IMG/VR virus record: IMGVR_UViG_3300032895_000099 | Location: 1 to 20,414 of that record | Direction: 5' to 3' (one strand) | From: a virus | DNA: 20,414 nucleotides | Shown: positions 1,830-20,000 of the stretch, one piece after another | Numbering within the stretch: the first letter of the stretch is position 1 | Layout: every line of letters begins with the position of its first letter | Notes under the pieces: generated by a model | What the model was told of the DNA's origin: nothing | What the model saw: only the letters and a program-made list of their open reading frames with translations | Databases searched by the model: none | Position numbers and translations under genes: made by a program

Positions 1830-2950
1830 TGCACGCTGAAGCAATGCAGTGGATTGCGGGGCACGCCAGCCGCGGGCCTGTGCTGGATGTTGGCGGGCGT
1901 GATGTGAACGGCACCCCGCGGCATCTGTTCCCAGGCGAGTACACGGTGCTGGACATGCGGCCAGCACCCAACGTGGACATAGTTGCTGACGCGGCCACCT
2001 GGCGAACTGACCGCCGCTGGCCTGTGGTGGTGTGCAGTGAGGTGCTGGAGCACACGCCGCAATGGCGGGCAGTGGTGCGCACCTGCGGCCTGGCGCTGGC
2101 ACCAGGCGGCCGGCTGATAATCACCTGTGCCGGGCCAGGCCGTCCCGAGCATTCGGCTTACGACGGCGCACTGACGCTGCAGCCAGGCGAATACTACGGC
2201 AACGTTGACCCAGCAGAACTGGCAGCGGTGCTTAAGGAATGCGGGATGACGGATGTGACAGTAGACCAGGCCGGGCATGACGTGCGGGCGGTGGCCACAG
2301 CGCCGCTCACTTCCCATCAGATCAGCTGGGAGCCGCAGCCGTTTCCGCATGCTGTAACTGATGGCCTGTGGGACGCTGACCGCCTGGCTGCGGTGGCTGA
2401 TGAGTTCCCGTCGCCAGATTCACCTGCCTGGCACTGGTACGGTGAAGCACACGAACGCGGCAAAGGCGAAGGCAGCGACCCAGCCACCTGGGGTCCGCAA
2501 ACCCGTTCCATGCTCGCCGACATGATGGCCATGGCACCCGAGCTGGAAACCATCACCGGGATTGAGCAGCTGACCGCTGACACTTACGGCGGTGGCATGC
2601 ACATGACAGGTGAAGGTGGCCGTCTGGCTATGCACCGCGACTTCAACATTCACCCGCAGCTGCGGCTGGAACGCCGGCTCAACTTTCTGGTGTTCCTGAA
2701 CCCAGTCTGGGAACGCGACTGGGGCGGGGTGCTGTACCTGGGCCGCCACCGTGAAGTCGAGGTACTGCCAGTGGCTAACCGCACGGCTATCTTCGCCTGC
2801 ACAGGCAAAAGCTGGCACGGGCATCCTGAGCCTGTCACAGGTGAGCACTGGCGCAAATCACTAGCCTGTTACTTTTATGCGCCTTTGCGGCCACCCCTGC
2901 CTCAGCAGGGCACCATCTGGCTAAGCGAAGACGGCGGTCATGATGGCTGA
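1823..2950 (+). CDS. Two-domain protein: SAM methyltransferase fused to 2OG-Fe(II) oxygenase
   Basis: A 375-residue protein with two catalytic domains. Residues about 1-150 are a class I SAM methyltransferase of the methyltransferase-11 type: VLDVGGRDVNG (20-30) is motif I, SEVLEH (72-77) is the middle motif and LAPGGRLIIT (92-101) is the late strand. Residues about 165-360 resemble a prolyl-hydroxylase-like 2-oxoglutarate/Fe(II) oxygenase: H271-x-D273 in the sequence AMHRDF, WGGVLYLG (300-307), a distal histidine in SWHGHPEP (H332 or H334) and an Arg in HWRKSL (R344) for 2-oxoglutarate. The GTG at 1823 or the ATG at 1829, which forms a TAATG overlap with the upstream stop, may be the start; the ATG is attractive. 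Known relatives modify sugars or proteins; which one applies here is inference. Confidence 0.9.
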   Translation: MVMHAEAMQWIAGHASRGPVLDVGGRDVNGTPRHLFPGEYTVLDMRPAPNVDIVADAATWRTDRRWPVVVCSEVLEHTPQWRAVVRTCGLALAPGGRLIITCAGPGRPEHSAYDGALTLQPGEYYGNVDPAELAAVLKECGMTDVTVDQAGHDVRAVATAPLTSHQISWEPQPFPHAVTDGLWDADRLAAVADEFPSPDSPAWHWYGEAHERGKGEGSDPATWGPQTRSMLADMMAMAPELETITGIEQLTADTYGGGMHMTGEGGRLAMHRDFNIHPQLRLERRLNFLVFLNPVWERDWGGVLYLGRHREVEVLPVANRTAIFACTGKSWHGHPEPVTGEHWRKSLACYFYAPLRPPLPQQGTIWLSEDGGHDG

Positions 2951-3614
2951 CATGCTGGTGCTGGTGCCGTCAAGGGAACGGCCAGCTAACCTGGCACGGT
3001 TCACGGCAGCCGCACAGGACACCCTCGGCGGCGCAGCTGACCTGATGTTCGTTCTCGATGAAGACGACCCGCTGCTTGAAGACGCCATCGCTGTAGCAAC
3101 TGAGAACAGGATTCTTACCCGCGTGCAGCCGCGGATGCTGACGGTGCCCAAGCTTAACGCCGCAGCGCTGGCTTACTGCGGCGCATACCCAGTCATCATG
3201 TTCACAGGCGATGACACCGTGCCGCGCAGCCGCTGGTGGGATGCTGACATTGTGTCAGCAATGAGTGACCTGGTTACGGGTTACGTCTACCCTAATGGCC
3301 TGGGCCGCACCGACATCCCCGAGCATGTGGCTATCTCCACTGACATCATCCGCGCGCTCGGCTGGTTCGGGCTGCCGTCCATCAGGCACTACTACGTGGA
3401 TGAAGCCTGGGCTGACCTGGGCAACGGCGCGCAGTGCATAACGTACCTGCCTGACGTGGTGGTGGAGCACCTGAACCCGCTGTACGGCAAAGGCCCGCGT
3501 GACCACATTGTGCGGCTAGGTGAGTGGCATGCTGATGCTGACCGCCAGGCGCTTGAAGCCTGGCGTGCGGACGGCCTGGAAGCCGACCTTAAAACCGTCC
3601 GCAGCCTGCTGTAA
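2940..3614 (+). CDS. GT-A-like glycosyltransferase, last gene of the sugar operon
   Basis: A 224-residue protein starting LVLVPSRERP, a common opening of small GT-A-like transferases in actinobacteriophages. MFVLDEDDP (36-44) and the metal-site-like FTGDDTVPRSRWW (88-100) support a nucleotide-sugar fold, and HYYVDEAWADLGNG resembles the acceptor-side segment. The start at 2940 lies inside the end of the oxygenase gene, an 11-base overlap, so it belongs to the same operon. Its 3' end overlaps tail to tail with trpS by 26 bases (3589-3614). It may act on the same acceptor as the other glycosyltransferases; this is inference from gene order. Confidence 0.87.
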   Translation: MMADMLVLVPSRERPANLARFTAAAQDTLGGAADLMFVLDEDDPLLEDAIAVATENRILTRVQPRMLTVPKLNAAALAYCGAYPVIMFTGDDTVPRSRWWDADIVSAMSDLVTGYVYPNGLGRTDIPEHVAISTDIIRALGWFGLPSIRHYYVDEAWADLGNGAQCITYLPDVVVEHLNPLYGKGPRDHIVRLGEWHADADRQALEAWRADGLEADLKTVRSLL

Positions 3615-4632
3615 GGTTCCGCTTCCAGGATGGCGACGGCTCGCGGCCGATAGCTTTGCGGACCCGGGTCATCAGCTCCACCGCTTCTGGACGGGCGCGC
3701 TGCGCCCCTACCGCAAGGATGTGCTCGATCTGGCGCTTGTCGGCCATCAGCTCCCGGTAACGCTCGCGTGGTTTGGCCAGGAACTCGTTGAGCAGGCCGA
3801 ACACCTGGTCTTTGAGTTCCTTCCACGACATCGCGCCGGCCTCCAACGCCTGGCGCACCCGCAGGGTGTCTTCAGGGTCGGCGATTTCCCGGTAAATCTG
3901 AAACAGGCCGGTGCTTTCGGGGTCCTTCGGCTCGTCAGGCGCTGAGGAGTCGGTCTTAAACCGCCTGATCAGCTTCCGAAGCTCATCAGGCTCGGCGAAC
4001 AACGGGATTACGTTGCCATAGGACTTGCTCATCTTCCGGCCATCAGTGCCAAGGATGTTGGCTGCTGTCGGGCTCACCAGCAGTTCAGGAACCTTCAGCA
4101 CCTCGCCATAGGTGAGGTTGAACTTCCCCGCTATGTCGCGGGTCATCTCCACATGCTGGGACTGGTCCCTGCCTACCGGGACAACGTCGGAGGAGAAGAT
4201 CAGGATGTCGGCTGCCATCAGCACCGGGTAGGAGTACAGGCCCATGTTCACATCAGCGTCGAGGTCGGCCTTGCCCTTCGCCTGAGCGTGCTCAACAGCA
4301 GCCTTGTAGGCGTGCGCCCGGTTCATCAGACCCTTAGGCGTGACGCAGCCAAGGATCCACGAAAGCTCGAAGACCTCCGGAATGTCTGACTGCCGGTACA
4401 GCGTCACCCGATCCGGATCCAGGCCCATCGCCAGCCACGCCGCAGCCACCTCGTAAGTGAGGTCAGTCAGTGTCTGAGGATCCTTCACTGTGGTCAGCGC
4501 GTGATAGTCGGCGATGAAATAGTAGGTGTCGTAGCTTTCTGTCAGCGCCAGGGCAGGACGGATGGCACCGATATAGTTCGCGACATGCGGGATGCCTGTC
4601 GGCTTGATCCCTGTCAGGGAACGCCTATCCAT
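3589..4632 (-). CDS. trpS: Tryptophanyl-tRNA synthetase
   Basis: Attaches tryptophan to tRNA-Trp using ATP. The protein is 347 residues from the ATG at 4632, close to the usual length for bacterial TrpRS. It opens LTGIKPTGIPHVANYIGAIR: the first class I signature, usually HxGN here, reads HVAN, with alanine in place of the normally conserved glycine. YFIADYHALT follows as in TrpRS, and the second signature is intact as GRKMSKSYGN. The ATG at 4632 is preferred over an upstream in-frame codon at 4707 because GGAGAA sits about ten bases before it and homology begins there. About 15 C-terminal residues look non-native, and the stop lies inside the convergent glycosyltransferase gene. Codons appear somewhat richer in ATC, GAC and GAG than in neighbours. 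Presence in a phage late region is unusual. Confidence 0.95.
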   Translation of the reverse strand: MDRRSLTGIKPTGIPHVANYIGAIRPALALTESYDTYYFIADYHALTTVKDPQTLTDLTYEVAAAWLAMGLDPDRVTLYRQSDIPEVFELSWILGCVTPKGLMNRAHAYKAAVEHAQAKGKADLDADVNMGLYSYPVLMAADILIFSSDVVPVGRDQSQHVEMTRDIAGKFNLTYGEVLKVPELLVSPTAANILGTDGRKMSKSYGNVIPLFAEPDELRKLIRRFKTDSSAPDEPKDPESTGLFQIYREIADPEDTLRVRQALEAGAMSWKELKDQVFGLLNEFLAKPRERYRELMADKRQIEHILAVGAQRARPEAVELMTRVRKAIGREPSPSWKRNLTAGCGRF

Positions 4633-4767
4633 GCTCAAGGTTCTCCAGATGAGGAGGGCTGCGATGCGAGGCTCCACTGGCGCGGCTCCAGCTGCCCGCG
4701 CACTCAATGCGCGAAAGCTGTACGGTCCGCGCGATGCTTGGCTTCCGTGGGAACTGTGGGAGGGTTT
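4633..4767. promoter_or_regulatory. Divergent spacer between trpS and the 4768 gene
   Basis: 135 bases separate the start of trpS (leftward) from the start of the small protein gene (rightward). The spacer holds the trpS ribosome binding site (GGAGAA on the minus strand), a second site for the possible leader ORF at 4651-4658, one TGGCTTCCG element at 4739-4747 and the GGGAGGG site at 4758-4764 for the 4768 gene. It must contain the trpS promoter, but no convincing -35/-10 pair stands out. Confidence 0.4.
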
Positions 4768-4774
4768 ATGCTAG
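4664..4774 (+). CDS. Possible 36-residue leader ORF upstream of 4768
   Basis: A short frame beginning ATG at 4664 after a strong GAGGAGGG ribosome binding site at 4651-4658. It encodes an Ala/Arg-rich start (MRGSTGAAPAARALN) and a Trp-rich end with AWLPW-x-x-W, and stops at 4774 so that it overlaps the start of the next gene by seven bases. It could be a translation-coupling leader peptide for that gene. The Trp-rich part coincides with a copy of the recurring TGGYTTCCG element, so the reading frame may be incidental. No family recognised. Confidence 0.35.
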   Translation: MRGSTGAAPAARALNARKLYGPRDAWLPWELWEGLC

Positions 4775-5049
4775 CACTCAGCCAGACCGTAGTCAGCACC
4801 ACCGCTGTCACCCTGGGGGTGCTGGGGCCAGGCTGCTCGCTGACAGTTCAGCCGCCAGCCAGCGGTGGCACCACCGTAGCCATCGGCAACGGCACTGGTG
4901 CGGTGACGCTGACCAGTGGCTACCTGCTTAATGCTGGCGGTGCGCCTGTGTTCATATCTTTGCCACCCACGTCGCAGTCGGCCACTATTCAGGCTATTGC
5001 CGCTGCCACCAACCAGGCCATTGGCCTGGCCTGGGTTTCAGCGTACTAG
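4768..5049 (+). CDS. Small Ala/Thr/Gly-rich protein of unknown function, possibly virion-associated
   Basis: A 93-residue protein from ATG at 4768, preceded by GGGAGGG about four bases upstream, the best ribosome binding site in this area. A longer in-frame extension to 4501 exists but is antisense to trpS and has no such site. The protein is rich in Thr, Ala, Gly and Val with alternating small residues (GCSLTVQPP, AVTLTSGYLLN), which suggests beta strands as in head decoration or fibre-like virion proteins. There are no catalytic motifs, and I do not recognise the family. It lies at the head of the structural half of the window. Confidence 0.75.
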   Translation: MLALSQTVVSTTAVTLGVLGPGCSLTVQPPASGGTTVAIGNGTGAVTLTSGYLLNAGGAPVFISLPPTSQSATIQAIAAATNQAIGLAWVSAY

Positions 5050-5061
5050 CCGTCATGGTTC

Positions 5062-5070
5062 TGGTTTCCG
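5062..5070 (+). repeat. TGGYTTCCG intergenic element, copy B1
   Basis: TGGTTTCCG about 12 bases after the stop of the 4768 gene. It belongs to a family of eight exact TGGYTTCCG or one-mismatch copies in plus-strand spacers at 4739, 5062, 5096, 7957 (TGGATTCCG), 8982, 9000, 9066 and 11479. The extended region in several copies contains CCG soon after the stop and GAT before the TGG. Confidence 0.6.
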
Positions 5071-5095
5071 CTGACTCGATGGGCCGCTCACCCGT

Positions 5096-5104
5096 TGGTT
5101 TCCG
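5096..5104 (+). repeat. TGGYTTCCG intergenic element, copy B2
   Basis: A second TGGTTTCCG in the same spacer, 34 bases after the first. It sits in the loop of a short possible hairpin with CCGT at 5092-5095 and ACGG at 5107-5110. No gene is seen on the plus strand between 5050 and 5123. Confidence 0.55.
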
Positions 5105-5123
5105 CTACGGTGTTGGACCCCCC

Positions 5124-5312
5124 TTACGTTTTCTTATTTCTTCCCTTCCCGTGTGGTGGCCGCCGCATTCTCGGGTTCACGATTTCCTGGTCGCTGGCGT
5201 CAGGCCGCAGCGGGCTGCTGATATTGCCGTGAGTGGGGCAGCGCCACCGCGGCGGGTTGCCGTAGCTGCGCAGCGTAGTTCCGCATTCAGGGCACGTTGG
5301 CTTACTCGCCAT
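5124..5312 (-). CDS. Small zinc-ribbon protein
   Basis: A 62-residue protein from ATG at 5312 with a GGGAAGGAAAA ribosome binding site directly upstream on the minus strand. C7-x2-C10 (CPEC) and C25-x2-H28 (CPTH) form a probable one-metal zinc ribbon, followed by a basic tail ending GKGRNKKT that could contact nucleic acid. It is divergent from the next plus gene with a 37-base spacer and convergent with the 4768 gene. A competing plus-strand frame across this region lacks a clear ribosome binding site and motifs. Function unknown; small zinc ribbons like this are common accessory genes in actinobacteriophages. Confidence 0.78.
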   Translation of the reverse strand: MASKPTCPECGTTLRSYGNPPRWRCPTHGNISSPLRPDASDQEIVNPRMRRPPHGKGRNKKT

Positions 5313-5349
5313 TTTTCCTTCCCTTCCCTGGTGGAGGCTTCAGTATACT

Positions 5350-5622
5350 ATGCCGCAGGTACAGTTGCCTACTGGCTGCAATTCCCTGAAGTTCAGCGAC
5401 GGTAAAGAGTACTACGGGAAACGTGGCGGGCATGTGAACGTCAGTGATGAGCATGCCAGGGAGATAGGTTCCAGCTCAAACGGGCAGCTGGGCATCGTAT
5501 CTGGCACGCAGGCGCTGGTGGTTGGCACTAAACGCGGCCAGTGGTGCTGGCCGTGCGGACGCCTGTGGCAGGCATGGTCAGCTGAGTGCCCTAAGTGCGG
5601 CCAGCCGACCACCCCTCAGTGA
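5350..5622 (+). CDS. Phage protein with C-terminal zinc ribbon
   Basis: A 90-residue protein from ATG at 5350, with GGAGG at 5333-5337 (spacing about 12, slightly long). The N-terminal half (VQLPTGCNSLKFSDGKEYYG, then GGHVNVSDEHAREI) looks like a small beta domain. The C-terminus carries C66-x2-C69 (CWPC) and C80-x2-C83 (CPKC), a likely zinc ribbon. Proteins of this pattern occur near capsid and connector genes of actinobacteriophages, but no biochemical role is known to me. Its last seven bases overlap the end of a convergent microprotein gene. Confidence 0.85.
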   Translation: MPQVQLPTGCNSLKFSDGKEYYGKRGGHVNVSDEHAREIGSSSNGQLGIVSGTQALVVGTKRGQWCWPCGRLWQAWSAECPKCGQPTTPQ

Positions 5623-5738
5623 TACGGGTACGGTGGCCGGCGTCCAGCATGCCAGCGCAGCCAGCAGCGTACCCACCAGGCGAATGCTTGCCTGGCCCAC
5701 GCCCGCTGCTGGCGTTTAGCCGTTCTGCTGGCGCTCAT
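5616..5738 (-). CDS. Arg/Trp-rich 40-residue microprotein
   Basis: A short gene whose ATG at 5738 overlaps the stop of the preceding membrane microprotein gene in an ATGA junction, so it is translationally coupled. The product begins MSASRTAKRQQRAWARQ and contains WWVRCWLRW, giving a very basic, tryptophan-rich peptide of 40 residues with a single Cys. The composition resembles membrane-active cationic peptides, but no family is recognised. It ends seven bases inside the convergent zinc-ribbon gene. A similar pair (membrane microprotein, then Arg/Trp-rich microprotein) occurs at 13748-14055. Confidence 0.6.
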   Translation of the reverse strand: MSASRTAKRQQRAWARQAFAWWVRCWLRWHAGRRPPYPYH

Positions 5739-5860
5739 TGTTGGCCCCGCTTCCAGGCTGCCCTCGCAGCCAGCCACGGCACGAAATGCTCCAGGGTTTT
5801 ACGGAGGCAAACGTAGCCTATGAGCATTAAGGCCAGCTGTACGTACTGAGCGATTTCCAT
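5735..5860 (-). CDS. Single-pass membrane microprotein, 41 residues
   Basis: Starts ATG at 5860 with an AAGGGG ribosome binding site about nine bases upstream on the minus strand. The product has a hydrophobic stretch YVQLALMLIGYVCL (residues 6-19), a second amphipathic segment HFVPWLAARAAW and a basic end WKRGQQ, so a short membrane protein is likely. It lies between the MazG-like gene and the basic microprotein gene, whose start overlaps its stop. The size is below that of typical holins, and no lysis genes are adjacent; function unknown. Confidence 0.65.
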   Translation of the reverse strand: MEIAQYVQLALMLIGYVCLRKTLEHFVPWLAARAAWKRGQQ

Positions 5861-5881
5861 TCCCTGTTTCCCCTTTCCTTC

Positions 5882-6304
5882 TCAGGCGTCCTCTTCGGGG
5901 AGTATCGCCGGCAGCACGACTGCGGATGGTTCCTCGCACACCACGCACGGCGGCCCAGCCCCCACCAGCGGCCGGCCGTCCTTGGCGTAGTCGGGAATGT
6001 GCGCAGCGCATACTGACTCTTCGTGAGCCTGCAGTGTATTGTTCGCGTTCACCTGAGAATAGGCAAGCATGGCGCAAGCGGCTATGTCCAGAAGCTCGTT
6101 ACCTGCCCGATCCGATACTAGGTGCAAGAAGCGTTTATTCTCGGACCAGAGGTCATACAGCTCCTTCGTCTCGTCCTGAATGCTGGATATTGCCATGCGG
6201 AGGCCGTTCCTGTTAAAACCAAAGAGATCGGCGTCAAAACCTTCCCTGGCTCTTATCTCGCTTATTCTGGCCAGCAGGTCGTGCATCGCTTTCCCATTGC
6301 TCAT
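5882..6304 (-). CDS. MazG-like protein with C-terminal Cys motifs
   Basis: A 140-residue protein from ATG at 6304, preceded by GGGAGG about eight bases upstream; a longer frame from 6361 would overlap the upstream gene without gain. MazG-type nucleotide pyrophosphohydrolases carry an ExxE-spacer-ExxD metal site in a helical bundle. Here E45-T-K-E48 and E70-L-L-D73 fit with 21 residues between. The C-terminal part has C99 and H102 plus C120-x2-C123, possibly a zinc site. Its ATG overlaps the stop of the cupin-like gene (ATGA at 6301-6304), so the two are coupled. It may hydrolyse a nucleotide triphosphate or an alarmone-type nucleotide; substrate unknown. The assignment rests on motif spacing only. 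Confidence 0.75.
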   Translation of the reverse strand: MSNGKAMHDLLARISEIRAREGFDADLFGFNRNGLRMAISSIQDETKELYDLWSENKRFLHLVSDRAGNELLDIAACAMLAYSQVNANNTLQAHEESVCAAHIPDYAKDGRPLVGAGPPCVVCEEPSAVVLPAILPEEDA

Positions 6305-6780
6305 CCGCTTTCCTCCCTTACCCGGCCCGCACAAGGATGATGACCTTGTGAAGCGAACCACTTGTTAGCCTTACGGAACTTGCCGTTCTTCCAGAATCCC
6401 CAGCTGCGGGTTTTAGGACCAGTTATCAGCAGTGTCCAGGCACCCCCACGGTCTGGGACGACGGTGTGCTGGTGCGAGGCTGGCCGGTACCGCAGCATCC
6501 CAGCCCGCAGGTGCTCGTTGCCGCCTGGGGTGCGGTCAGTGTACCCGCCGCGCAGCACCAGGGTAATGAACCACCACGGATGGTCATGAAAAGCACGGTC
6601 GTCGTCTGGGCCGAGCCAATGGTGAACACGCACTGAGCCTACGCCGCGTATTTCCAGACGCCACCGTATGACGTACGGGCACTGCGGGAACCCGAGTGGT
6701 TCCCGCCACCTGAATTGGTACCGGGGGATGGATTGCGACCCACCGACCTTCGCTTCATCTGAGCGACGCTCTTTACGCAC
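6301..6780 (-). CDS. Cupin-like protein
   Basis: A 159-residue frame with histidine-rich cupin-like motifs: HDHPWWF at 65-71 and GGYTD at 78-82 as the first motif, and H103-x-H105 with WTLLITGP as the second. This pattern is seen in a small family of phage and bacterial proteins that usually start just before PYxxRW; here PYVIRW is at 35-40. Enzyme or binding role unknown. The only standard start upstream of that segment is the GTG at 6780, which lies inside the D-loop of a tRNA-like gene, so the first about 21 codons would be encoded by the tRNA body. GGGG seven bases before the GTG could serve as ribosome binding site. The 3' end is coupled to the MazG-like gene. Confidence 0.75.
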   Translation of the reverse strand: MRKERRSDEAKVGGSQSIPRYQFRWREPLGFPQCPYVIRWRLEIRGVGSVRVHHWLGPDDDRAFHDHPWWFITLVLRGGYTDRTPGGNEHLRAGMLRYRPASHQHTVVPDRGGAWTLLITGPKTRSWGFWKNGKFRKANKWFASQGHHPCAGRVREESG

Positions 6781-6794
6781 TGAGCTACCCCGGT
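6716..6794 (-). tRNA. Atypical tRNA or tRNA-derived element (anticodon position reads GAT)
   Basis: Folding the minus strand by eye gives a complete cloverleaf of 79 nt with encoded CCA: acceptor ACCGGGG/CCCCGGT (7 pairs), D-stem GCTC/GAGC, anticodon stem TCGCT/AGCGA (5 pairs), variable AGGTC, and T-stem GGTGG/CCATC (one G-U). Several features are abnormal: the anticodon loop CAGATGA has A where U33 is expected, the D-loop AGTGCGTAAA lacks the GG pair, and the T-loop GTCGCAAT has eight bases. The central triplet reads GAT (Ile) if the loop is taken literally. The stems are too regular for chance, so this is either a diverged phage tRNA or a decayed one. It is not a tRNA-Trp for the nearby trpS. 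Confidence 0.6.
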
Positions 6795-6804
6795 TCGCTG
6801 GAGC

Positions 6805-7020
6805 CTAGTTTCCCTTCGGCCCCCAGGCCACTATCAGACGGCAGTAGCAGCACAGCTGCGGCAGCTTGCCGCCGTCGAACTTCTGTATGCGCTTAGCAGG
6901 GGCACAATGATGCCCCAGCTCGCACAACGTGTGGGCGTACAGCAGAGCCACGACTTCCTCGCGCAGCTCCGCAAGGTACTCACGCGGCGTAGCGCGCACG
7001 CGGTATGCACGTAGCTTCAT
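6805..7020 (-). CDS. Small Cys/His-rich protein
   Basis: A 71-residue protein from ATG at 7020 with GGGG about eight bases upstream, the first gene of the reverse island. The N-terminal half is a charged helix (PREYLAELREEVVALLYAHT). Potential metal ligands follow: C33, H37, H38, C39 and then C57, C58, C60 in LCCYCRLIV. It probably binds zinc. No family recognised. Its stop is 11 bases before the 5' end of the tRNA-like gene. It is divergent from the 7085 gene with a 64-base spacer. Confidence 0.75.
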   Translation of the reverse strand: MKLRAYRVRATPREYLAELREEVVALLYAHTLCELGHHCAPAKRIQKFDGGKLPQLCCYCRLIVAWGPKGN

Positions 7021-7084
7021 ACTTCATTCCCCTTTCCCTGGTTACAGCTCCCCGAATACTACTACGCCGTAAAGGAGAAAACAA

Positions 7085-8030: not shown

Positions 8031-8969
8031 GTGGTTGTAAGCGTCTACGGGCCAGGCACACCGTATGTGACGCCGCAGCTGCTGACCAATGCACCCACTG
8101 GCATAACCTGGAAGTCCATTCCGTCGCCGCGGGCTACACCAGCTGAGCAGTTTGCGGAGCAGCTGAACATCTGTGCCCGCGCAACCAGCATGGTTGACAC
8201 CGAATGCAACCAGGTTGTCCGTGCGACTGTGGACACCGAAACCCAGCAGGGTCCTGACCTGTTCGTCACCATCAACTACCAGACTGGCGTAGGCCGCGTG
8301 GTGCTGCAGCGCTGGCCTGTCATACAGGTTCTCGGTGGCCAGTGGACACCCACAGCGACGTTCCCGCCTGACTGGCAGCCGATAGCTGGCAGCCAGTTCG
8401 TTATCGAACGCCCAATCATCGGCTTGTACGGCACTAACGTGCCATCGGATGCTGGTGAAGGCGGCCAGGCTGTCTTGGTCGCTCCTGGGTACCTTAACTG
8501 GGGATACGGCCGTAACGGCTGCACCATCCAGATTACGTACGTCAACGGCTGGCCGCATGCTTCGCTCACTGCGGATGCTGTGGCCGACTCCATGATTCTG
8601 CAGATTGACGACTGCACTGGCTGGGCTCCTGTCAGCGCCGGCGGTCAGGGTGCATGCGGCGTGCTGAAAGACTCCGCCAACCAGGAAGCCGTCACAGTGA
8701 CTGCGGCATCAGCCCAGTCAGGTCCAGGCTATGTGACACTGGCAGCGCCGCTGGCGTTTGACCATGGTGCTGGCGTTACCCTCACCACCATTCCTGAGCA
8801 GCTGCAGCAGGCCACCATCCTGTTTGCTGCGGCGCAGGCGCTGACCCGTGGTGCTACCGCCACCACCATTCAGACAATCAGCGGTACGGGCCAGGCTACG
8901 GCTTCAGGTTCTGAGCAGCTGATGACTGATGCTAAAGCACTGTGCGAGCCGTACAAGCGGATGTGGTAG
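8031..8969 (+). CDS. Head-tail adaptor (connector) protein
   Basis: A 312-residue protein from GTG at 8031 with CGGAGG at 8022-8027. It is longer than minimal head-tail adaptors but has a suitable architecture: an N-terminal helical part (TPAEQFAEQLNICARATSMVDTECNQ), a beta-rich middle (VVLQRWPVIQV, LNWGYGRNGCTIQITYVNGWP) and a C-terminal helical part (LQQATILFAAAQALTRG, then MTDAKALCEPYKRMW) typical of gp6/gp15-like connector subunits. Its place directly before the tail terminator fits. Such proteins form a ring between portal and tail. The subtype is inferred from architecture and order. Confidence 0.75.
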   Translation: MVVSVYGPGTPYVTPQLLTNAPTGITWKSIPSPRATPAEQFAEQLNICARATSMVDTECNQVVRATVDTETQQGPDLFVTINYQTGVGRVVLQRWPVIQVLGGQWTPTATFPPDWQPIAGSQFVIERPIIGLYGTNVPSDAGEGGQAVLVAPGYLNWGYGRNGCTIQITYVNGWPHASLTADAVADSMILQIDDCTGWAPVSAGGQGACGVLKDSANQEAVTVTAASAQSGPGYVTLAAPLAFDHGAGVTLTTIPEQLQQATILFAAAQALTRGATATTIQTISGTGQATASGSEQLMTDAKALCEPYKRMW

Positions 8970-9096
8970 CCGTGAGGATCTTGGTTTCCGTGCGGGGCGT
9001 GGTTTCCGCGGTCCACGTCGTGCTACTGGCTACCGCTGAGCATCTGGAGGAGACCGCTTCGCCTATGGTTTCCGCCTCTACCGTGGAACAGTCCCG
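8970..9096 (+). promoter_or_regulatory. Spacer with three TGGTTTCCG copies and a coupled mini-ORF
   Basis: This spacer holds exact TGGTTTCCG copies at 8982-8990, 9000-9008 and 9066-9074. The second sits between CGTGG and CCACG, which can form a hairpin. A GTG at 8972 opens a 44-codon frame ending TAA at 9106 across the start of the next gene; inside it, GGAGGAG at 9046-9052 precedes an ATG at 9065 in the same frame, giving a 13-residue peptide starting MVSAS. This may couple translation to the TTG start at 9097, which has no good ribosome binding site of its own. The coding value of the longer frame is doubtful. Confidence 0.45.
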
Positions 9097-9603
9097 TTGC
9101 CTATAAACAGTACTCAGGTATACATCAAGAGCCTGCTGGACGGTCTCATTGTGCCTGGGAACAGCCGCACACTCGAAGCTTACATCACACCAGAAGACCC
9201 CCGTGATGAAGAGAACCCTGCCGCATACATCTGGCCCAGCAACGGCAGCGAGAACAGGCAGGCCGTGCCACGGGTTGGCGCAGACACAGCTCACCCCACC
9301 CAGGCAGGATGGAAAGAAGCCACTCATGAGCTGGACATATGGCTCACCTGGTTCAACGACGACTCCGACCCAAATGCGGACATCAGCTTCCCCGCTGTAG
9401 TTGACATCGTCATGTACACGCTGCGCTCGTCAGCCAACCCAGCCGTCATATACGACCAGCTGACAGGCATCGGCAGCCAGCTGATAGATGTTGGTGAGCG
9501 CATGACATACCGCATGGCTGGCGTGCGCTCCGTGGCTGACCAGAGATACCTGCGTTACGATGCGCAGCTGACGCTCGTACTTATTGAAGAACTGCAATCG
9601 TAA
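9097..9603 (+). CDS. Tail terminator protein
   Basis: A 168-residue protein starting at TTG 9097, the only standard start in the open part of this frame. YIKSLLDGLI at the N-terminus, a central VWLTWF-like strand segment (LDIWLTWFNDD), the helix AVVDIVMYTLRS and the closing strand RYDAQLTLVLIEEL fit tail terminator proteins, which form a hexameric ring that ends the tail tube and joins it to the head. The order adaptor, terminator, major tail protein is the standard one. Identification is by architecture and gene order rather than a diagnostic motif. Confidence 0.75.
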   Translation: MPINSTQVYIKSLLDGLIVPGNSRTLEAYITPEDPRDEENPAAYIWPSNGSENRQAVPRVGADTAHPTQAGWKEATHELDIWLTWFNDDSDPNADISFPAVVDIVMYTLRSSANPAVIYDQLTGIGSQLIDVGERMTYRMAGVRSVADQRYLRYDAQLTLVLIEELQS

Positions 9604-9628
9604 TTCCGGCAAGCCTTCGCCTGTCGTG

Positions 9629-9669
9629 CCCGCCTTTCCGCTAGCATTTAGCTGCTTGGGGGAAGCGGG
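9629..9669 (+). other. Structured leader before the HNH gene
   Basis: CCCGC (9629-9633) can pair with GCGGG (9665-9669), TTTCC (9635-9639) with GGGAA (9660-9664), and GCTA (9640-9643) with TAGC (9649-9652), leaving one bulge and a small internal loop. The HNH ribosome binding site GGAGG starts three bases after the stem. Leader hairpins that limit translation are known for some homing endonuclease genes of T4-like phages; a similar role here is inference. No T run follows, so a terminator is less likely. Confidence 0.45.
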
Positions 9670-9681
9670 ACGGAGGAGGAT

Positions 9682-10176
9682 GTGCCTGGTTCTTACCCTG
9701 GAATGCACGGCAGCTTGCGGGATCGGCTGCTAGCTAAGACCGTCATTGACCTGGACGCTCCGGCTACCGTAGACGATGCACCGTGCTGGCTATGGACCGG
9801 ATGCAAAACTAGGGGTGGTTACGGACAGATACGTGACGCCAACCGAGGTTCTGGCAACAGGACTAAAGTCTACGTCCACCGGGCTATGTATGAACTGTGG
9901 TTTGGCCCCATTCCAGACGGTCTGGAGCTTGACCATCTGTGTCGGAACCGGGCCTGCGTAAACCCAGCTCACCTTGAGCCAGTTACGCCGCTGGAGAATC
10001 TGAGGCGCGGTGAGTCGTCCGCTGCCAGATACGGCAAGCGGACGCACTGTGAGCAGGGGCATGAGTTCACCCTGGCCAATACCATCATCCGTGAGAACGG
10101 TGGGCGCAGGTGTCGGGAGTGTAAGCGCATCTATGAACACGAGAAGTACCTAGCCCGTAAAAGTGGAGGTTCTTGA
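9682..10176 (+). CDS. HNH endonuclease (probable free-standing homing endonuclease)
   Basis: A 164-residue protein from GTG at 9682 with GGAGGAGG closely upstream; an ATG at 9703 is a possible later start. CWLWTGCKTRGGYGQI is the common N-terminal motif of phage HNH_3-type endonucleases, VHRAMYELWFGPIPDG leads to the catalytic LDHLCRNRACVNPAHLEPVT, with His in LDH and Asn/His in CVNPAH. A C-terminal CxxGH and CRECKR pair probably binds zinc. It sits between the tail terminator and the major tail protein, a frequent insertion point for mobile endonuclease genes. Its stop overlaps the TTG start of the major tail protein gene. Confidence 0.93.
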   Translation: MPGSYPGMHGSLRDRLLAKTVIDLDAPATVDDAPCWLWTGCKTRGGYGQIRDANRGSGNRTKVYVHRAMYELWFGPIPDGLELDHLCRNRACVNPAHLEPVTPLENLRRGESSAARYGKRTHCEQGHEFTLANTIIRENGGRRCRECKRIYEHEKYLARKSGGS

Positions 10177-11465
10177 CGGCAGTCGTTATTGCAACTCCCC
10201 AGCCGGTGTTCCCGGTCTCGGAGAGGTTCGTGGGGATTGCCCGAGAAACTACCTATGGGACGCCAGTTAACCCTTCTGTCACGATTCCTCTTACTTCGTT
10301 CTCCCCTCAGGATAAGCCTGTATGGATTATGGACGAAGCCTGGCGTGGGGCTATGGCTGGCGAGTATGACATGCTACAGGGTCCGCTGTGGGCTGAGACT
10401 TCGTTCGGTGGCCCTGTGTACGGTGACACCGTTGGGCACCTGCTGTACAACATTCTGGGTGACTACACCCAGGCTGCTTCAACCACGGCACCTATTACTA
10501 CGCTGTCCACTGCGGTAGCTGCCACTGCGGGGACGCTGCCTGTGGCCACTGGGACCAGCTTCACCAACGGCATGTATGTTGAGGTGTTCCAGTCAGGCAG
10601 CAGCGGGCCAGCGGAAATTGTGGAGGTCTCCTCAGCCACGTCCACCACTATTGTGCTGTCGGCTGGCACGCCCATCCGTTTTGGGCACAGCAGCGGCGCA
10701 ACCGTGGTGAACACCACTGGGACTTCGTCCACGTTCACCAACACGTTCTCGCTGCTGAACAGCATTGTGAACACGGGGCAGCCGTATGCTTCGGGCCAGC
10801 CGCCGTCGCACACGTTCACTGACCGTACGCAGGTGCCTGGGGTGTCTAACAACCTGGCGGCACAGTATGCGTTCGGGTGCCTGAGCCAGCTGACGCTCAC
10901 AGGCAGCGCCCAGGGTATCTTCATGATGAGCGGCAACATGACCTCGTTCAGTTATGCCGCTCCTAACTCAGCTCCGACAGCGAACGTCAGCTCAGTGCGG
11001 GCAACCCCTAACTGGCGTTCCACTGTCGGCATCAACGGGACCGTGTCTGGGTCGCCTGTGAACGACCTGACTGAATGGGAGTTCCAGCTCAACCGCGTGA
11101 TTGAGCCGATTCCCACCACTGACGGCACGCAAAGCCCGTACACCATTGCCCGCGGTAAGTTCACCGCTACGGCCAAGCTGACCTACCAGCCCAGCGTTGA
11201 CCTGACCGCGCTGACCTACATGCTGAACAACACCCAGCCGCAGCTGCAGATTATCTACTCAAACGGCCTGTCGGGCACCAGCAACATTACGTACACCATC
11301 AACGTGCAGCTGGGTGCGTTTGACACGTCCAACATCAACGAGTCCAGCGCACTGTTCGGGTATGACGTGACAGCGAAGCTGATAGCCAACACCACCAACG
11401 TTGGCTGGAGCGGTGGCTACTCGCCTATCAGCGTCGCTGTTGCTAACGCCATCCCCGTGTACTGA
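10173..11465 (+). CDS. Major tail (tube) protein
   Basis: A 430-residue protein beginning at TTG 10173, which overlaps the HNH stop (TTGA); GGAGG lies only three bases before it, so initiation may be weak or coupled. SERFVGIARETTYGTP near the N-terminus is a typical opening of actinobacteriophage major tail proteins, followed by Gly/Thr/Ser/Val-rich beta structure throughout and an insertion of repeated-Thr segments (about residues 105-180: TTAPITTLSTAVAATAGTLP and later VEVSSATSTTIVLSAGTP) resembling a surface domain. It polymerises into the tail tube. Size and position before the chaperone genes support the call. Confidence 0.85.
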   Translation: MTAVVIATPQPVFPVSERFVGIARETTYGTPVNPSVTIPLTSFSPQDKPVWIMDEAWRGAMAGEYDMLQGPLWAETSFGGPVYGDTVGHLLYNILGDYTQAASTTAPITTLSTAVAATAGTLPVATGTSFTNGMYVEVFQSGSSGPAEIVEVSSATSTTIVLSAGTPIRFGHSSGATVVNTTGTSSTFTNTFSLLNSIVNTGQPYASGQPPSHTFTDRTQVPGVSNNLAAQYAFGCLSQLTLTGSAQGIFMMSGNMTSFSYAAPNSAPTANVSSVRATPNWRSTVGINGTVSGSPVNDLTEWEFQLNRVIEPIPTTDGTQSPYTIARGKFTATAKLTYQPSVDLTALTYMLNNTQPQLQIIYSNGLSGTSNITYTINVQLGAFDTSNINESSALFGYDVTAKLIANTTNVGWSGGYSPISVAVANAIPVY

Positions 11466-11659
11466 CCCGCAGGATCTCTGGCTTCCGTGGCCGACTTGGG
11501 GCCGTTTGTCCCATGGCTTACGTCACAACCCTGGGCCGTTGCAACTTTGGCTCACGCCGCAGGTCTGGGCCGCAGGTGCTTTGGCTTGCGTATCAGCATT
11601 GGTGACTTACCAGCAACCGTATACCCGTTACGTCTGAGCACAAAAACAAGGGGTGATGA
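11466..11659 (+). promoter_or_regulatory. 194-base spacer between major tail protein and chaperone genes
   Basis: It starts with a copy of the intergenic element (TGGCTTCCG at 11479-11487, preceded by CCGCAGGATCTC after the stop). No convincing gene was found: frames starting at 11487 and 11514 lack ribosome binding sites and familiar motifs. The end contains AAAACAAGGGGTGATGA, the ribosome binding site of the chaperone gene. Repeated short GGGCCG and GCCGCAGGT words occur within it. It could hold a promoter or an mRNA processing site. Confidence 0.4.
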
Positions 11660-12103
11660 ATGCGCGCTGACCTTAAGTCAGGTGCCTGGGTGGAGCTGCG
11701 CGGTGCTGACCAGCTGGTAGCTGGGGACAAGCTGGCGCTGCACCAGTCCACCGTGCTGCCTGTGAACGGTGCCGAGCTGGACGAGCTGGCGGAAGGCCGC
11801 GGGCGGATGAGCTTCAGCCTGGGGACCGTGGACGAGCAGCTGTATAACGTGCTGGCCCGCCTGATTCAGGCATGGAGTTACCCGTATGTGCTGCCGCGTG
11901 ACGACATCACCCAGGATGACAACGGCAAGCGCACTTACGATGAGAGCCTGAAACGGCTGCCGCTGGACGACTGGAACGAACTGGAAGAAATCACAGCCCC
12001 GCACATGGACAAGCTGCGGGCGTCCCCAAAAGGCAAAAGAACGACCTCTACACGCTCAGCGTCTTCCTCCGCGGCCAGGGGACGCAGCTCCCAGACGGTC
12101 TAG
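11660..12103 (+). CDS. Tail assembly chaperone, unshifted (G-type) product
   Basis: A 147-residue protein from ATG at 11660 with AAGGGG about nine bases upstream. The body (residues 1-120) has short strands and helices (VELRGADQLVAGDKLAL, then VDEQLYNVLARLIQAWSYP and LDDWNELEEITAPHMDKL) typical of siphoviral tail assembly chaperones, which bind the tape measure protein. After the CCCAAAA slip site the zero-frame tail becomes low-complexity Ser/Thr/Arg (TTSTRSASSSAARGRSS), as usual when the shifted frame is the one under selection. Confidence 0.88.
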   Translation: MRADLKSGAWVELRGADQLVAGDKLALHQSTVLPVNGAELDELAEGRGRMSFSLGTVDEQLYNVLARLIQAWSYPYVLPRDDITQDDNGKRTYDESLKRLPLDDWNELEEITAPHMDKLRASPKGKRTTSTRSASSSAARGRSSQTV

Positions 12104-12243
12104 ACCCTGTCACGCTGCGGCGCTGCATTTACCTGGTGAAGTTCGGCCTGCATCCTGATGTGTCAGATGCGCTGCCAGTTGAGGTGGACACCTGGCTGCT
12201 GCCAGTGGCGCTCACCATCCGCCGTATTGAGAACGGGGACTGA
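11660..12243 (+). CDS. Tail assembly chaperone, -1 frameshift (GT-type) fusion product
   Basis: Shares residues 1-124 with the unshifted product, then continues in the -1 frame from 12031. The shifted part reads RQKNDLYTLSVFLRGQG, then LRRCIYLVKFGLHPDVSDAL and ends LTIRRIENGD before TGA at 12241-12243, giving about 194 residues. It is a well-formed protein sequence in contrast to the zero-frame tail. The stop is two bases before the next gene. Two-product chaperone pairs are nearly universal in long-tailed phages; only a fraction of ribosomes make the fusion. Confidence 0.85.
12025..12031 (+). other. -1 ribosomal slippery site CCCAAAA
   Basis: The heptamer is in register as C CCA AAA (X XXY YYZ) with the chaperone frame and lies just before the zero-frame sequence becomes low-complexity. 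Re-pairing on CCC AAA moves the ribosome into the frame that stays open to 12243. No strong downstream pseudoknot was identified by eye. Confidence 0.85.
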
Positions 12244-12245
12244 CT

Positions 12246-12752
12246 GTGGAGCCAGCGGACCTGCCAGACTACCTGGATGCGCTGGCTGACCGCATTGACC
12301 CAGCTACCCGCGCAGCAGCCAACGGCATGGCGCAAGCCTACGACAAGGGTCTTAAGACTGACGAGCTGGTGCGCACCACAGGTCACCCGTCAGCACCTGG
12401 GTCACCGCCGGCGCTGGAAAGCGGGCGGCTGCGGGACAGCCTGCGGATAACCCAGGCAGCTGATGCTGGCCTTTACCGCTGGCGTTCAGCCGTCAACCCG
12501 AACACCGTCTACGCTCACATTCAGGAGTACGGTGGCGACATCTGGGCTAAGCACACTTACGTTGACCGCAGGACAGGAATAACCAGGCCAGGGTTCCTGC
12601 GGTGGTCAGGACCAGGAGGGGTTCACTTCGCACGGCATGTTCACTTGCCTAAGCGCCCGTACATGAGCGCAGGCACCAGGCGTATGGCTGCGGACGGCAC
12701 CTTGAGAAATGGTGCCGTCCGCAGCTTTAATGCTGAGATGGGGTTCAGCTGA
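12246..12752 (+). CDS. Tail-completion-like protein (HK97 gp10 / Mu G-like)
   Basis: A 168-residue protein from GTG at 12246, two bases after the GT stop. The pattern GSPPALESGRLRDSL, then VYAHIQEYGGDIWAKHT and HLPKRPYMSAGTRRM is typical of HK97-gp10/virion-morphogenesis-type proteins that close the tail or head-tail joint, including the usual ending with a xxPRPYMxPA-like motif. The position after the chaperones rather than before the major tail protein is uncommon, so the name is a structural guess. The downstream neighbours are on the other strand and convergent. Confidence 0.8.
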   Translation: MEPADLPDYLDALADRIDPATRAAANGMAQAYDKGLKTDELVRTTGHPSAPGSPPALESGRLRDSLRITQAADAGLYRWRSAVNPNTVYAHIQEYGGDIWAKHTYVDRRTGITRPGFLRWSGPGGVHFARHVHLPKRPYMSAGTRRMAADGTLRNGAVRSFNAEMGFS

Positions 12753-13054: not shown

Positions 13055-13726
13055 TCACCTTTCCCTTAGAGCCTGCTCACGCAGGGTACCTGTCAGGTGA
13101 CATGAGCGGCAGATCAGCTCGGTGGTGGGCTGCTGGTTGCAGACGCCGCATATGCCTGGGTGGCGGTGGCCAGCACCTGTGTAGTCATCGTTGGAGTGCC
13201 AGCGCCGGCTGCCTTCCCACGTGCATGTGCTGCTGTCTCCGTTCAGCAGGTACACCTGCTGGTTGTACCTGGGTTCGCTGGTCAGTATCAGCACCTTGTT
13301 GCCCTTGCCGAGGGTGGACTCCAGCAGGGCTCTGCGGCCCAGGTCGTCCAGCTCCCACCGGGGCAGTATCTCCGTGGCGAACACGCGGGTGTCACTGCGG
13401 CCGTCAGCGGTGTCAAACATGTACCCGTTGTGCATAATAAGGGTGCTGCCGCCAGCGCTGACAGGCTGGCAGTTAGCTGACGACAGCTCACCGCCTGTGG
13501 AATAACGGCAGTGGAAGGCTGCTGGACCGTCAGGGCATCTGATGCGCGCCGCCATAAAGGTGTCCACTGCCTCTTGGGCATCAAGCGTCCGCATGAACAG
13601 CAGCCCGCCGCGCAGTGGCGCAACTGGTATGACCCAGCCGTAACCGTCTGGGTTCAGCTTAGCGGCGTTCTGCAGCTGCTCAAGGGCAGGTGTAACGCCA
13701 GGTGACAAATACTGGATGTAGCACAT
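13055..13726 (-). CDS. Class II glutamine amidotransferase-like (Ntn hydrolase) protein with zinc tail
   Basis: A 223-residue protein from ATG at 13726 with AAGGGG about nine bases upstream. Met is followed by Cys2, the N-terminal nucleophile of class II glutamine amidotransferases. Other signatures align: NPDGYG (25-30), HCRYST (72-77; Arg for glutamine), HNGYMFD (99-105; oxyanion Asn-Gly) and SDT (111-113). These domains release ammonia from glutamine for a partner synthase; no synthase or transferase domain is fused here. C193, C196, C206 and C209 at the C-terminus form a probable zinc ribbon. Unusual cargo in a tail-gene region; its partner may be a host enzyme, a gene outside the window, or it may act as a hydrolase. 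Confidence 0.85.
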   Translation of the reverse strand: MCYIQYLSPGVTPALEQLQNAAKLNPDGYGWVIPVAPLRGGLLFMRTLDAQEAVDTFMAARIRCPDGPAAFHCRYSTGGELSSANCQPVSAGGSTLIMHNGYMFDTADGRSDTRVFATEILPRWELDDLGRRALLESTLGKGNKVLILTSEPRYNQQVYLLNGDSSTCTWEGSRRWHSNDDYTGAGHRHPGICGVCNQQPTTELICRSCHLTGTLREQALRER

Positions 13727-17040: not shown

Positions 17041-20000
17041 CTAGCCCAGCCGCCTACCTTATTGGCGTTGGCACGCTGGCTACAGGTACCACCTGCGTCA
17101 TCACCGCTGGCAGTGGGGGTGGCCAGCAGAACAACGCTGGCGATGCGATTATCGTAGGCGCATCAGCATCGGGCACGCAGACGGTCTCCAGCGTCACCGA
17201 CTCCGCTGGCAACATCTACACCGAGTGGAACTCCAGCGCTGCCCAGAACCCGACCAGCGGATGGATAGCTGACGCCAGCGGCAATCCTGGCGGCCCAGCG
17301 CCGCTGGGTGCGACGGGCACTATTACGGTCGTATTTAATGCCAGCACTGGAACAAAGATAGCTGGCGCGGTTGGCTGCCCTGGTGTGGCTGACAGTCCCA
17401 TAGACCAGAACCCCACCACCACGTCTAACGCTGGGTCAACGTCACCGTCGATTACTTCGGGTGCGCTTACCCAGCCAGTGGAAATCTGTGTTGCCATAAT
17501 GACTAACGGCAACGCCGGCGGCGAGTCAATGGTGTGGGCGGCTGGCTGGACGAGCTGGTTTGACCTGTTTGCTGGTGCCGGCGGGCAGGTCATGAGCATG
17601 GCCACCATGACCACCGCATCATCGTCGGCGGTCACGGCCAGCGGTACCATCAGCAGTGCCAAGTGGTGCATGCTGCTGGTGACGCTGCGGCTGTATGCCA
17701 ATGCTGTGTTCAACAGCTTTGAGACAGGCACGGCTGGCTCCACGGTCAGCACGGCTAACTCTGGCGGTGGCTCAGGCTTCTGGAACAACGCCTTTGACAC
17801 CGTGGCCATAGGCACCGCCGCAGCGTACACCTACCAGGGCACGGTTGTGGCGCACGGGTCGCTGGCTGCCCAGGTGACCACGGGCACTGCTGCTGTCACG
17901 TCGGTAGCGGAGTGGGGGGTGTCAGTAGGGTCACTGGCTCAGGCATGGTTCCGCTTCTATGCGTATTTCCCTTCGCCGCTGACCACGCCCGTGCGGGTGT
18001 TCACCGCCCAGGGGTCGTCTGGTAATGCGGCTTCGGTGCTGCTGTCTACCACTGGTGCCATTCAGGTGTGCGACTCCACCAACCTGGCTAAAGCCACGTT
18101 CGCTTCCACGCTGCCCACCGGGCAGTGGTTCCGCATGGAAGGCGAGATAACTGGCAGCGCGACTGCTGGGAGCCTTACCGCCAGGCTGTACACGGTGATG
18201 GATTCCGCCTACCCAACTGAGACGCAGACAGCCAGCAGCGTTAACACGCTGGGCCTGGTTGGGCCGTTCTGGTTTGGCCAGGGCACCGCGGTAGCCAGCA
18301 CCGCGGCGTTCTACCTGGACGATGTGGCAGTTTCAGCCAGCGGGTACATGGGGCCGGCTTCGCCACTGAGCGTTACGCAGCTGGCCTCGGCGGGTTACAG
18401 CGCTCAGGAAGGATTTGTGGCACCCCCGCCACCACCGACGTACTCGCTGCAGGTTGACCCTGAGAGCAACAACCCAGGCGACTGGCTGATTGCTGTTGTC
18501 AGCATCCGCCAGCCTGCTGCTGGCTGGCAGGTAACCACTGTCGGCACGCCGCAAACCGCAAACTACTTCCTCGTTGGCACGGCGGCGGCTGTCGGCATCT
18601 ACCCTGGGTCGCGCTTCACCGATTCAGGCAACCCAGGCCAGACGTTTGTCATCCAGAGTGTCTCCGCGCCGACCACAGGCACCATCACCGTCTACTACGC
18701 GCCAGCCAGCACCAGCCTGATGACCGCTGGCAACGTGCTGACGCAAGGCGGCGTCACAGTCTCCGTGGCTGACGACGCACACAACTGGTGGTACCCACTG
18801 GGTACCGTGCAAGGTTTCTCTAACGCCGCCACCAGCAGCGCCGCCGGGCTGATGCGCACCACTGTGTGGGCCGCACCAGCCGCACGGGCTGTAAATTACC
18901 TTACCGTTGCCCCGAGTGGGGTGTACGCAGCGCTTAACGTCACCCTGCTTGACGTTTCAGGACTGAGCCCGTACGCGGCGCTTGAGGCAAACATCAGCAC
19001 CTACGCAGCCAGCGGTACCACGCTGACGCTTGCCACCAGCACCCCGCCAGCCCAGGCGCTGGTGTTCAGCTCAGTGAACATAGGCTACGTGCCTAACAGC
19101 CCAGTGCTCACTGGCAGCGGCTGGTCTGCGACTGTCGCAGCAACCACGGTCAACGGTGTTGACCACAACGGCGACTCTTACAGCGTGCTGGCATGGCAGT
19201 ACACCACCCTGACTACCAGCGCCACGTGGACGTCGACCATTGCCGCAGCCATGAGCGCTGAGTCGCTGGTGCTCAGCGTAACAGGGACCGCCCCCGCGCA
19301 GAGCAACCCGTACTGGCCGTGGACCACCACGGAAATAGCAGCTGACCGTGGTCCTGGCGACACCATTGACATGCTGACGTGGCAGCCGCTTTCACAGGCC
19401 AGCGGCTCGCCCCGGTCACGCGTGCTGAGCATGCAGATGACGCAAGGCAAGCAGTACATGCTTGACCAGCTGCAGGCCGGCCAGGGTTCCATGACGCTGG
19501 ATGACCCTGACCAGACGCTTATCCCGCCTGGCTCAGGCCAGTTTTCAGGGCTGGACTCTGGGACGCCGTTCCGTGTGCGCCAGGCATGGGCAGGCGGCCC
19601 ATGGCAGGTGCAGTTCGCCAGCGTGAACGGCGAGAACCCGCTGGCATACAGCCTGTCTGGCCAGGCGGTCACACCTAACCAGGTATACACCGCCACCGCG
19701 TACCTGGGCAGCAACACCAGCGCGGGTGCTGCACTCAGCCACGTGGGTGCGTTCCTGGACACTGGCCCAATGCAGGTGGCTAACTTCACTGCGGCGCTGG
19801 CCCAGTGGACGGGACTGGGGCTGCCCCGGCCGTCTGTGTGCCGTTACTACCTGGCGCAGTCCACGTTCACGTATGACACCAACATGCAGGAGATGGTGGC
19901 GGCTGGCATCAAAATCTGCCTGGATGTCCGCCCAGCTTACAATCCCGTAAGTTCCACTGACCTGGCGAACCTGACCACGCTGCTGCAGACCCTGCGGGCT

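Follow-up and report, generated by a model that had tools for sequence, protein, structure and literature searches.

Why would a phage from a probably mid-sized lineage of actinobacteriophages carry a single aminoacyl-tRNA synthetase gene, when phage-borne synthetases are known mostly from very large phages? The question is raised by a trpS gene, encoding tryptophanyl-tRNA synthetase (TrpRS), in the window, as we call the whole stretch of DNA analysed here (20,414 nucleotides). This window takes in the whole of the IMG/VR record, a linear 20.4-kb fragment without end repeats, and holds head-tail, tail and tape-measure genes. The locus amounts to a natural experiment, in which the enzyme is a typical TrpRS save for a Gly-to-Ala change in its most conserved ATP-binding motif and related phages lack the gene; should the enzyme be active, it could reveal a pressure favouring the carriage of one synthetase. 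We propose that trpS probably encodes an active, laterally acquired TrpRS, carried as a moron, that loads host tRNA-Trp with tryptophan during infection and may serve as an extra dose or a backup.

Table 1. Features of the trpS locus, in positions of the window
Feature	Position	Strand	Basis or remark
trpS (tryptophanyl-tRNA synthetase, PRK12556 type)	3589-4632	-	NF009207, TIGR00233 and PF00579 above cut-off; AlphaFold model; TrpRS 5TEV/5TEW the best structural match
GGAG, possible ribosome binding site	4643-4646	-	Sequence; 10 nt before the trpS ATG
First class I signature HVAN, residues 16-19	4576-4587	-	His16, Ala18, Asn19
KMSKS motif, residues 200-204, intact	4019-4033	-	Translation and alignment
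Non-native C-terminal tail of TrpRS	3592-3640	-	Cellular relatives stop near residue 330; low pLDDT
Insert relative to related phages, 1.74 kb	3615-5349		trpS, 93-aa ORF and 62-aa ORF
93-aa ORF inside the insert	4768-5049	+	
62-aa zinc-ribbon-like ORF inside the insert	5124-5312	-	
Left flank: phage glycosyltransferase, phrog_14945	2940-3614	+	
Right flank: 90-aa zinc-ribbon-like protein	5350-5622	+	Conserved in all four related contigs

A complete TrpRS gene

The trpS ORF runs from an ATG at 4632 to a TAA at 3589-3591 and encodes 347 aa with no internal stop. Its product gives a full-length match to TIGR00233 (trpS; 289 bits against a cut-off of 177), a match to PF00579 (190 bits against 21) and one to NF009207/PRK12556 of NCBIfam that lies narrowly above the cut-off (481 bits against 479), and by these profile matches it is a bacterial-type TrpRS of subtype NF009207. 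The AlphaFold model, built on an input of 35 sequences, has a mean pLDDT of 92.9 and is closest to Neisseria gonorrhoeae TrpRS (5TEV and 5TEW, TM 0.88-0.93), and the protein is predicted with good confidence to have the TrpRS fold. The initial annotation had described a complete gene with an intact KMSKS motif and its own ribosome binding site; the first two points are borne out, and the GGAG ahead of the start codon is a plausible site. A sigma-70 scan, whose consensus may not fit the host, gave no convincing trpS promoter, and nothing credible came from an Rfam search for RNA leaders of the T-box or a similar regulatory kind.

trpS as an insertion between genes that adjoin in related phages

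Four related contigs of 8-64 kb were compared with the window: L102/L168 (64 kb), L166 (42.8 kb), L167 (43.2 kb) and L103 (8 kb). Wherever a contig covers the region, the glycosyltransferase gene is followed in a conserved order by the 90-aa zinc-ribbon-like gene, the 213-aa gene and the head-tail adaptor gene, and a PF00579 gene was found in none of the four, which may themselves be fragments. L108, which belongs to the 64-kb contig, has only 5 bp between the end of its glycosyltransferase gene (8330) and the start of the following gene (8336), and the roughly 450 bp that L166 has there would not accommodate a TrpRS gene, whereas in the window the same flanking genes are 1.74 kb apart, with trpS on the opposite strand and two small ORFs between them. 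By this comparison trpS is genuine phage cargo, a moron lying as an extra gene between genes that adjoin in related phages. A megablast search among annotated phages gave no close relative of the window, and a tape-measure search of viral contigs added no relatives.

The earlier description of trpS as lying opposite to the operons on both sides holds for the left flank, but the strands on the right are mixed (4768-5049 plus, 5124-5312 minus, 5350-5622 plus, then 5882-7020 minus). An ordinary phage size, which was also assumed, is not something that a 20.4-kb fragment allows one to read; the contigs of the relatives give the range stated above.

Like its cellular relatives, the enzyme has a natural core that stops near residue 331, after which the phage ORF continues for 16 residues, its final 8 codons being antisense to the 3' end of the glycosyltransferase gene. 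Model confidence falls in this C-terminal tail, which looks like an insertion scar. An alternative is that the locus is an artefact, either of a chimeric contig or of a base-call error at GCG that makes HVAN out of HVGN (GGG): the record is a single metagenomic contig and Ala differs from Gly by one base. However, both flanks follow the gene order of independent relatives, which also counters a chimeric join at 3600 or 4640, named in the initial annotation as an outcome that would lessen the novelty. Furthermore, the trpS ORF runs into its neighbour, its composition fits the phage, and the search for cellular TrpRS gave none above 61% identity. The GC content of trpS (60.8%) matches that of the surrounding phage genes, and its codon-use index of 0.695 compares with 0.64-0.73 for the other main phage genes and 0.46-0.54 for antisense frames. 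Flank synteny, the scar-like tail and phage-like GC and codon use together make a strong case against an assembly chimera, and an artefact of either kind is very improbable.

Other accessory genes were seen in the window and its relatives. A second cargo slot (5623-7084) holds three leftward ORFs and a tRNA-Ile(GAT) gene where the relatives have roughly 5-315 bp; one of these ORFs matches phrog_4786 ('cysteine dioxygenase'/cupin-like), and the tRNA gene (6716-6794) overlaps the annotated start of the ORF 6301-6780. In the related 64-kb phage the slot holds an ORF with two DUF397 stretches (L108:8535-8834, minus strand), DUF397 being a family mainly from actinomycetes, and the same phage has three tRNA genes (L109:9239-9311, 13332-13404 and 19698-19773, for Arg-ACG, Pro-TGG and Lys-TTT), none of them for Trp. 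Left of the glycosyltransferase gene, a single plus-strand ORF (1823-2950) encodes a SAM-methyltransferase-like domain fused with a 2OG-Fe(II) oxygenase domain and lies among sugar-modification genes (glycosyltransferases and an epimerase). An HNH endonuclease gene (9682-10176, plus strand), directly before a major tail-type gene, is present at the same place in L103 and missing there in L108 and L166, with a related HNH gene elsewhere in L108, and looks like a mobile homing-type endonuclease. Before the tape-measure gene and on the opposite strand, a glutamine-amidotransferase-like ORF (13055-13726, minus strand; weak purF/GATase_6, phrog_25883) has a 39% identical homologue elsewhere in a related phage (L107).

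Affinity with Actinomycetota enzymes and the probable host

The nearest cellular TrpRS are those of Actinomycetota, at 59-61% identity. Protofrankia coriariae and Pseudonocardia sulfidoxydans have enzymes 59% identical to that of the phage, and other Actinomycetota genomes (G091, G425 and G426 among the closest) reach 60-61%. Likeness to these PRK12556/NF009207 enzymes is full-length and includes the Lys of GIKPTG, the same Trp pocket and KMSKS; they differ in being cellular, in ending near residue 330 and in having HLGN or HIGN in place of HVAN. In a maximum-likelihood tree, the phage TrpRS groups with Actinomycetota enzymes at moderate support (87/75), whereas in a larger sequence set it pairs weakly with a long-branch sequence (79/89); an exact donor is thus not fixed by the tree, as the placement shifts once more sequences are added. 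The enzyme resembles the Actinomycetota type, and the initial reading is supported in so far as a full-length TrpRS of actinobacterial type lies in a phage structural-gene region.

The host is probably an actinobacterium and the phage a siphovirus-like member of a mid-sized lineage. Homologues of the left-flank glycosyltransferase occur in 69 phage records, all of them Streptomyces, Arthrobacter or Actinoplanes phages, and the head-tail protein matches Arthrobacter phages and also one Thermoanaerobacterium phage. Together with the DUF397 ORF of the related phage, these matches hint at Actinomycetota. A prophage search of 396 Actinomycetota genomes gave no convincing head-tail match.

The HVAN signature and the remaining active site

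The first class I signature of the phage enzyme reads HVAN, Ala18 being encoded by GCG (4579-4581). Gly occupies the third signature position in all 114 other aligned TrpRS, cellular and viral, in 36 of 36 further actinobacterial TrpRS of the same type (30 HLGN, 4 TLGN and 2 HVGN) and in about 30 additional viral TrpRS with a readable motif, so that the phage protein alone has Ala among some 180 other TrpRS examined. Since all of these have Gly, Ala18 is genuinely unusual for a TrpRS, and the initial reading of HVAN in place of HxGN is upheld. That HVAN might be a trait of a clade was rejected on the same sets, including the 36 actinobacterial sequences in which a common host-clade HVAN, which would have lowered its novelty, was not found. 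A back-translated HVAN pattern gave 16 matches in viral contigs, none of them a TrpRS.

The rest of the active site is conserved. In the 114-sequence comparison the phage TrpRS keeps 39 of the 40 columns that are conserved at 95% or more, the signature Gly being the sole break. The Trp pocket was compared with that of the E. coli-type enzyme, with residue roles taken from PMC10201369. Gly9, His45, Trp93, Leu125, Tyr128, Met132, Asp135, Ile136, Val144 and Gln150 (E. coli numbering) are all kept; phage Asp142 corresponds to Asp135, which binds the indole nitrogen in E. coli TrpRS (PMC10201369), and the Trp-specific pocket (Asp, Met, Tyr, Gln and His) is thus retained. The phage enzyme departs from E. 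coli at four pocket positions (Phe7 to Leu, Gln11 to Lys, Val42 to Ala and Val49 to Thr), each time with the residue that the nearest Actinomycetota enzymes (L006, L007 and L124) also have.

It might be argued that an enzyme altered in its ATP-binding signature is a passenger whose activity is impaired or gone, and that Ala18 and the read-through tail mark early decay after acquisition. Such decay would accord with the invariance of Gly18 in the other TrpRS, with the non-native tail and with three related records without a TrpRS, which imply that the gene is dispensable. On the other hand, 347 codons have stayed free of stops and frameshifts despite a long divergence (the nearest relative is 61% identical), only one conserved column is changed, and Ala is the mildest of replacements, a small change by one base (GGG to GCG), and is tolerated in TyrRS, so that decay appears unlikely. 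The third signature residue is Ala in class I relatives, namely human cytoplasmic TyrRS (HVAY) and a Plasmodium TyrRS (HIAQ) (PMC2813244). These class Ic enzymes belong to the same subclass, but they charge Tyr, are eukaryotic and differ in the fourth signature residue. As Ala is found in these related synthetases, the Ala18 enzyme need not be inactive, and the signature Gly was taken as highly conserved and not as defining for TrpRS membership. The converse proposal, that Ala18 is adaptive, retuning ATP binding or shielding the enzyme from a host toxin or inhibitor and so making it a dedicated counter-defence translation factor of an ordinary-sized phage, is improbable. A PADLOC search gave no hit to a known defence protein.

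Possible roles during infection

We favour active cargo, for which the following course may be envisaged. A PRK12556-type trpS of the Actinomycetota kind would have inserted on the opposite strand, next to the glycosyltransferase gene on one side and, on the other, to the small gene ahead of the head-tail genes. During infection, a dimeric TrpRS would be made that activates Trp with ATP and may charge host tRNA-Trp, the window having no tRNA-Trp gene of its own, with tRNA-Ile(GAT) as the sole tRNA found. The benefit, the least certain step, might lie in an added dose of TrpRS or in a backup where the host enzyme is in short supply or has been inactivated, as by HipT-type kinases. The KMSKS serine of TrpS is the residue that HipT phosphorylates, and high-copy trpS suppresses the toxicity in E. 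coli (PMC6581861). As the phage enzyme keeps this serine, protection against HipT-type kinases would come from dose and not from an absent target. Against active cargo, the only conserved position that is broken lies within the ATP-binding signature, the C-terminus is altered, a single sequence carries the gene, the closest relatives do without it, and the window has neither a tRNA-Trp gene nor a further synthetase.

Several other uses have been considered for such a gene. Supply of Trp-rich phage proteins, one of the roles initially suggested, is weakened as an explanation, and was set aside, by the finding that across seven homologous protein pairs the Trp content is 2.1% here against 1.9% in a relative without TrpRS, which is nearly as Trp-rich. 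A reading of TGA as Trp, or some other recoding in which the phage TrpRS serves a suppressor tRNA, has the presence of a phage TrpRS in its favour; it is extremely improbable and was rejected, as no stop codon is used more often in the window than TGA, read-through is not needed for the main genes and there is no suppressor tRNA. For a non-canonical activity, likewise raised at the outset, the analysis gave no positive evidence.

An inhibitor-tolerant TrpRS could sustain translation while the host meets a TrpRS-directed antibiotic, indolmycin for instance, and phage Lys10, aligned with E. coli Gln11 (B. stearothermophilus position 9), is in keeping with this. Kitabatake et al. (2002) reportedly tied Lys9 (B. 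stearothermophilus numbering) to the indolmycin resistance of Streptomyces TrpRS1, which is like the phage enzyme in this Lys but is a chromosomal second copy linked to antibiotic resistance. Second trpS copies confer indolmycin resistance (reviews PMC9437257, PMC6804068). However, the Lys is clade-wide, present in 36 of 36 further actinobacterial enzymes of this type, and no antibiotic-related gene was recognised in the window. One TrpRS each was found in 34 of the 35 Actinomycetota genomes checked, though the first-look filter could miss a second copy that is divergent, and the PRK12556-type enzyme is usually the sole TrpRS found in its genome. Given its clade-wide occurrence and the single TrpRS found in genomes, Lys10 is the usual housekeeping state and not a phage adaptation. 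The suggestion of an indolmycin bypass by a resistant second copy is thereby weakened, and there is only a slight chance that inhibitor tolerance accounts for the gene.

Other phage-borne TrpRS

Synthetases are indeed rare in smaller phages, as was initially stated, but TrpRS turns up repeatedly in phage contigs of very large size. Of the 37 TrpRS-like loci that IMG/VR gave, 17 are in contigs above 150 kb, and a huge phage may have as many as 15 synthetases (PMC7162821). Among annotated phages, a credible example is Microcystis phage MaAM05 (274 kb), and many other TrpRS matches in that collection look like host DNA in deposited fragments. The TrpRS of MaAM05 and of IMG/VR contigs of 150-620 kb are like the enzyme described here in being phage-borne with an intact KMSKS, but their contigs are much larger, Gln stands at the Lys position in most, and all readable signatures have Gly. 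A phage-borne TrpRS is therefore not new, and the case here is real and somewhat unusual, not categorically new. A second ordinary-sized case is L003 (IMGVR_UViG_2521172697), a 49.5-kb phage-like contig that likewise has a single TrpRS near terminase and portal genes; this intact enzyme has HIGN and Gln, comes from a different phage and is an independent acquisition on a different TrpRS branch. In L003 the TrpRS gene lies at 5830-7044 (plus strand), the terminase gene at 8533-10719 and the portal gene at 10991-12478, with a tRNA-Asn gene close by.
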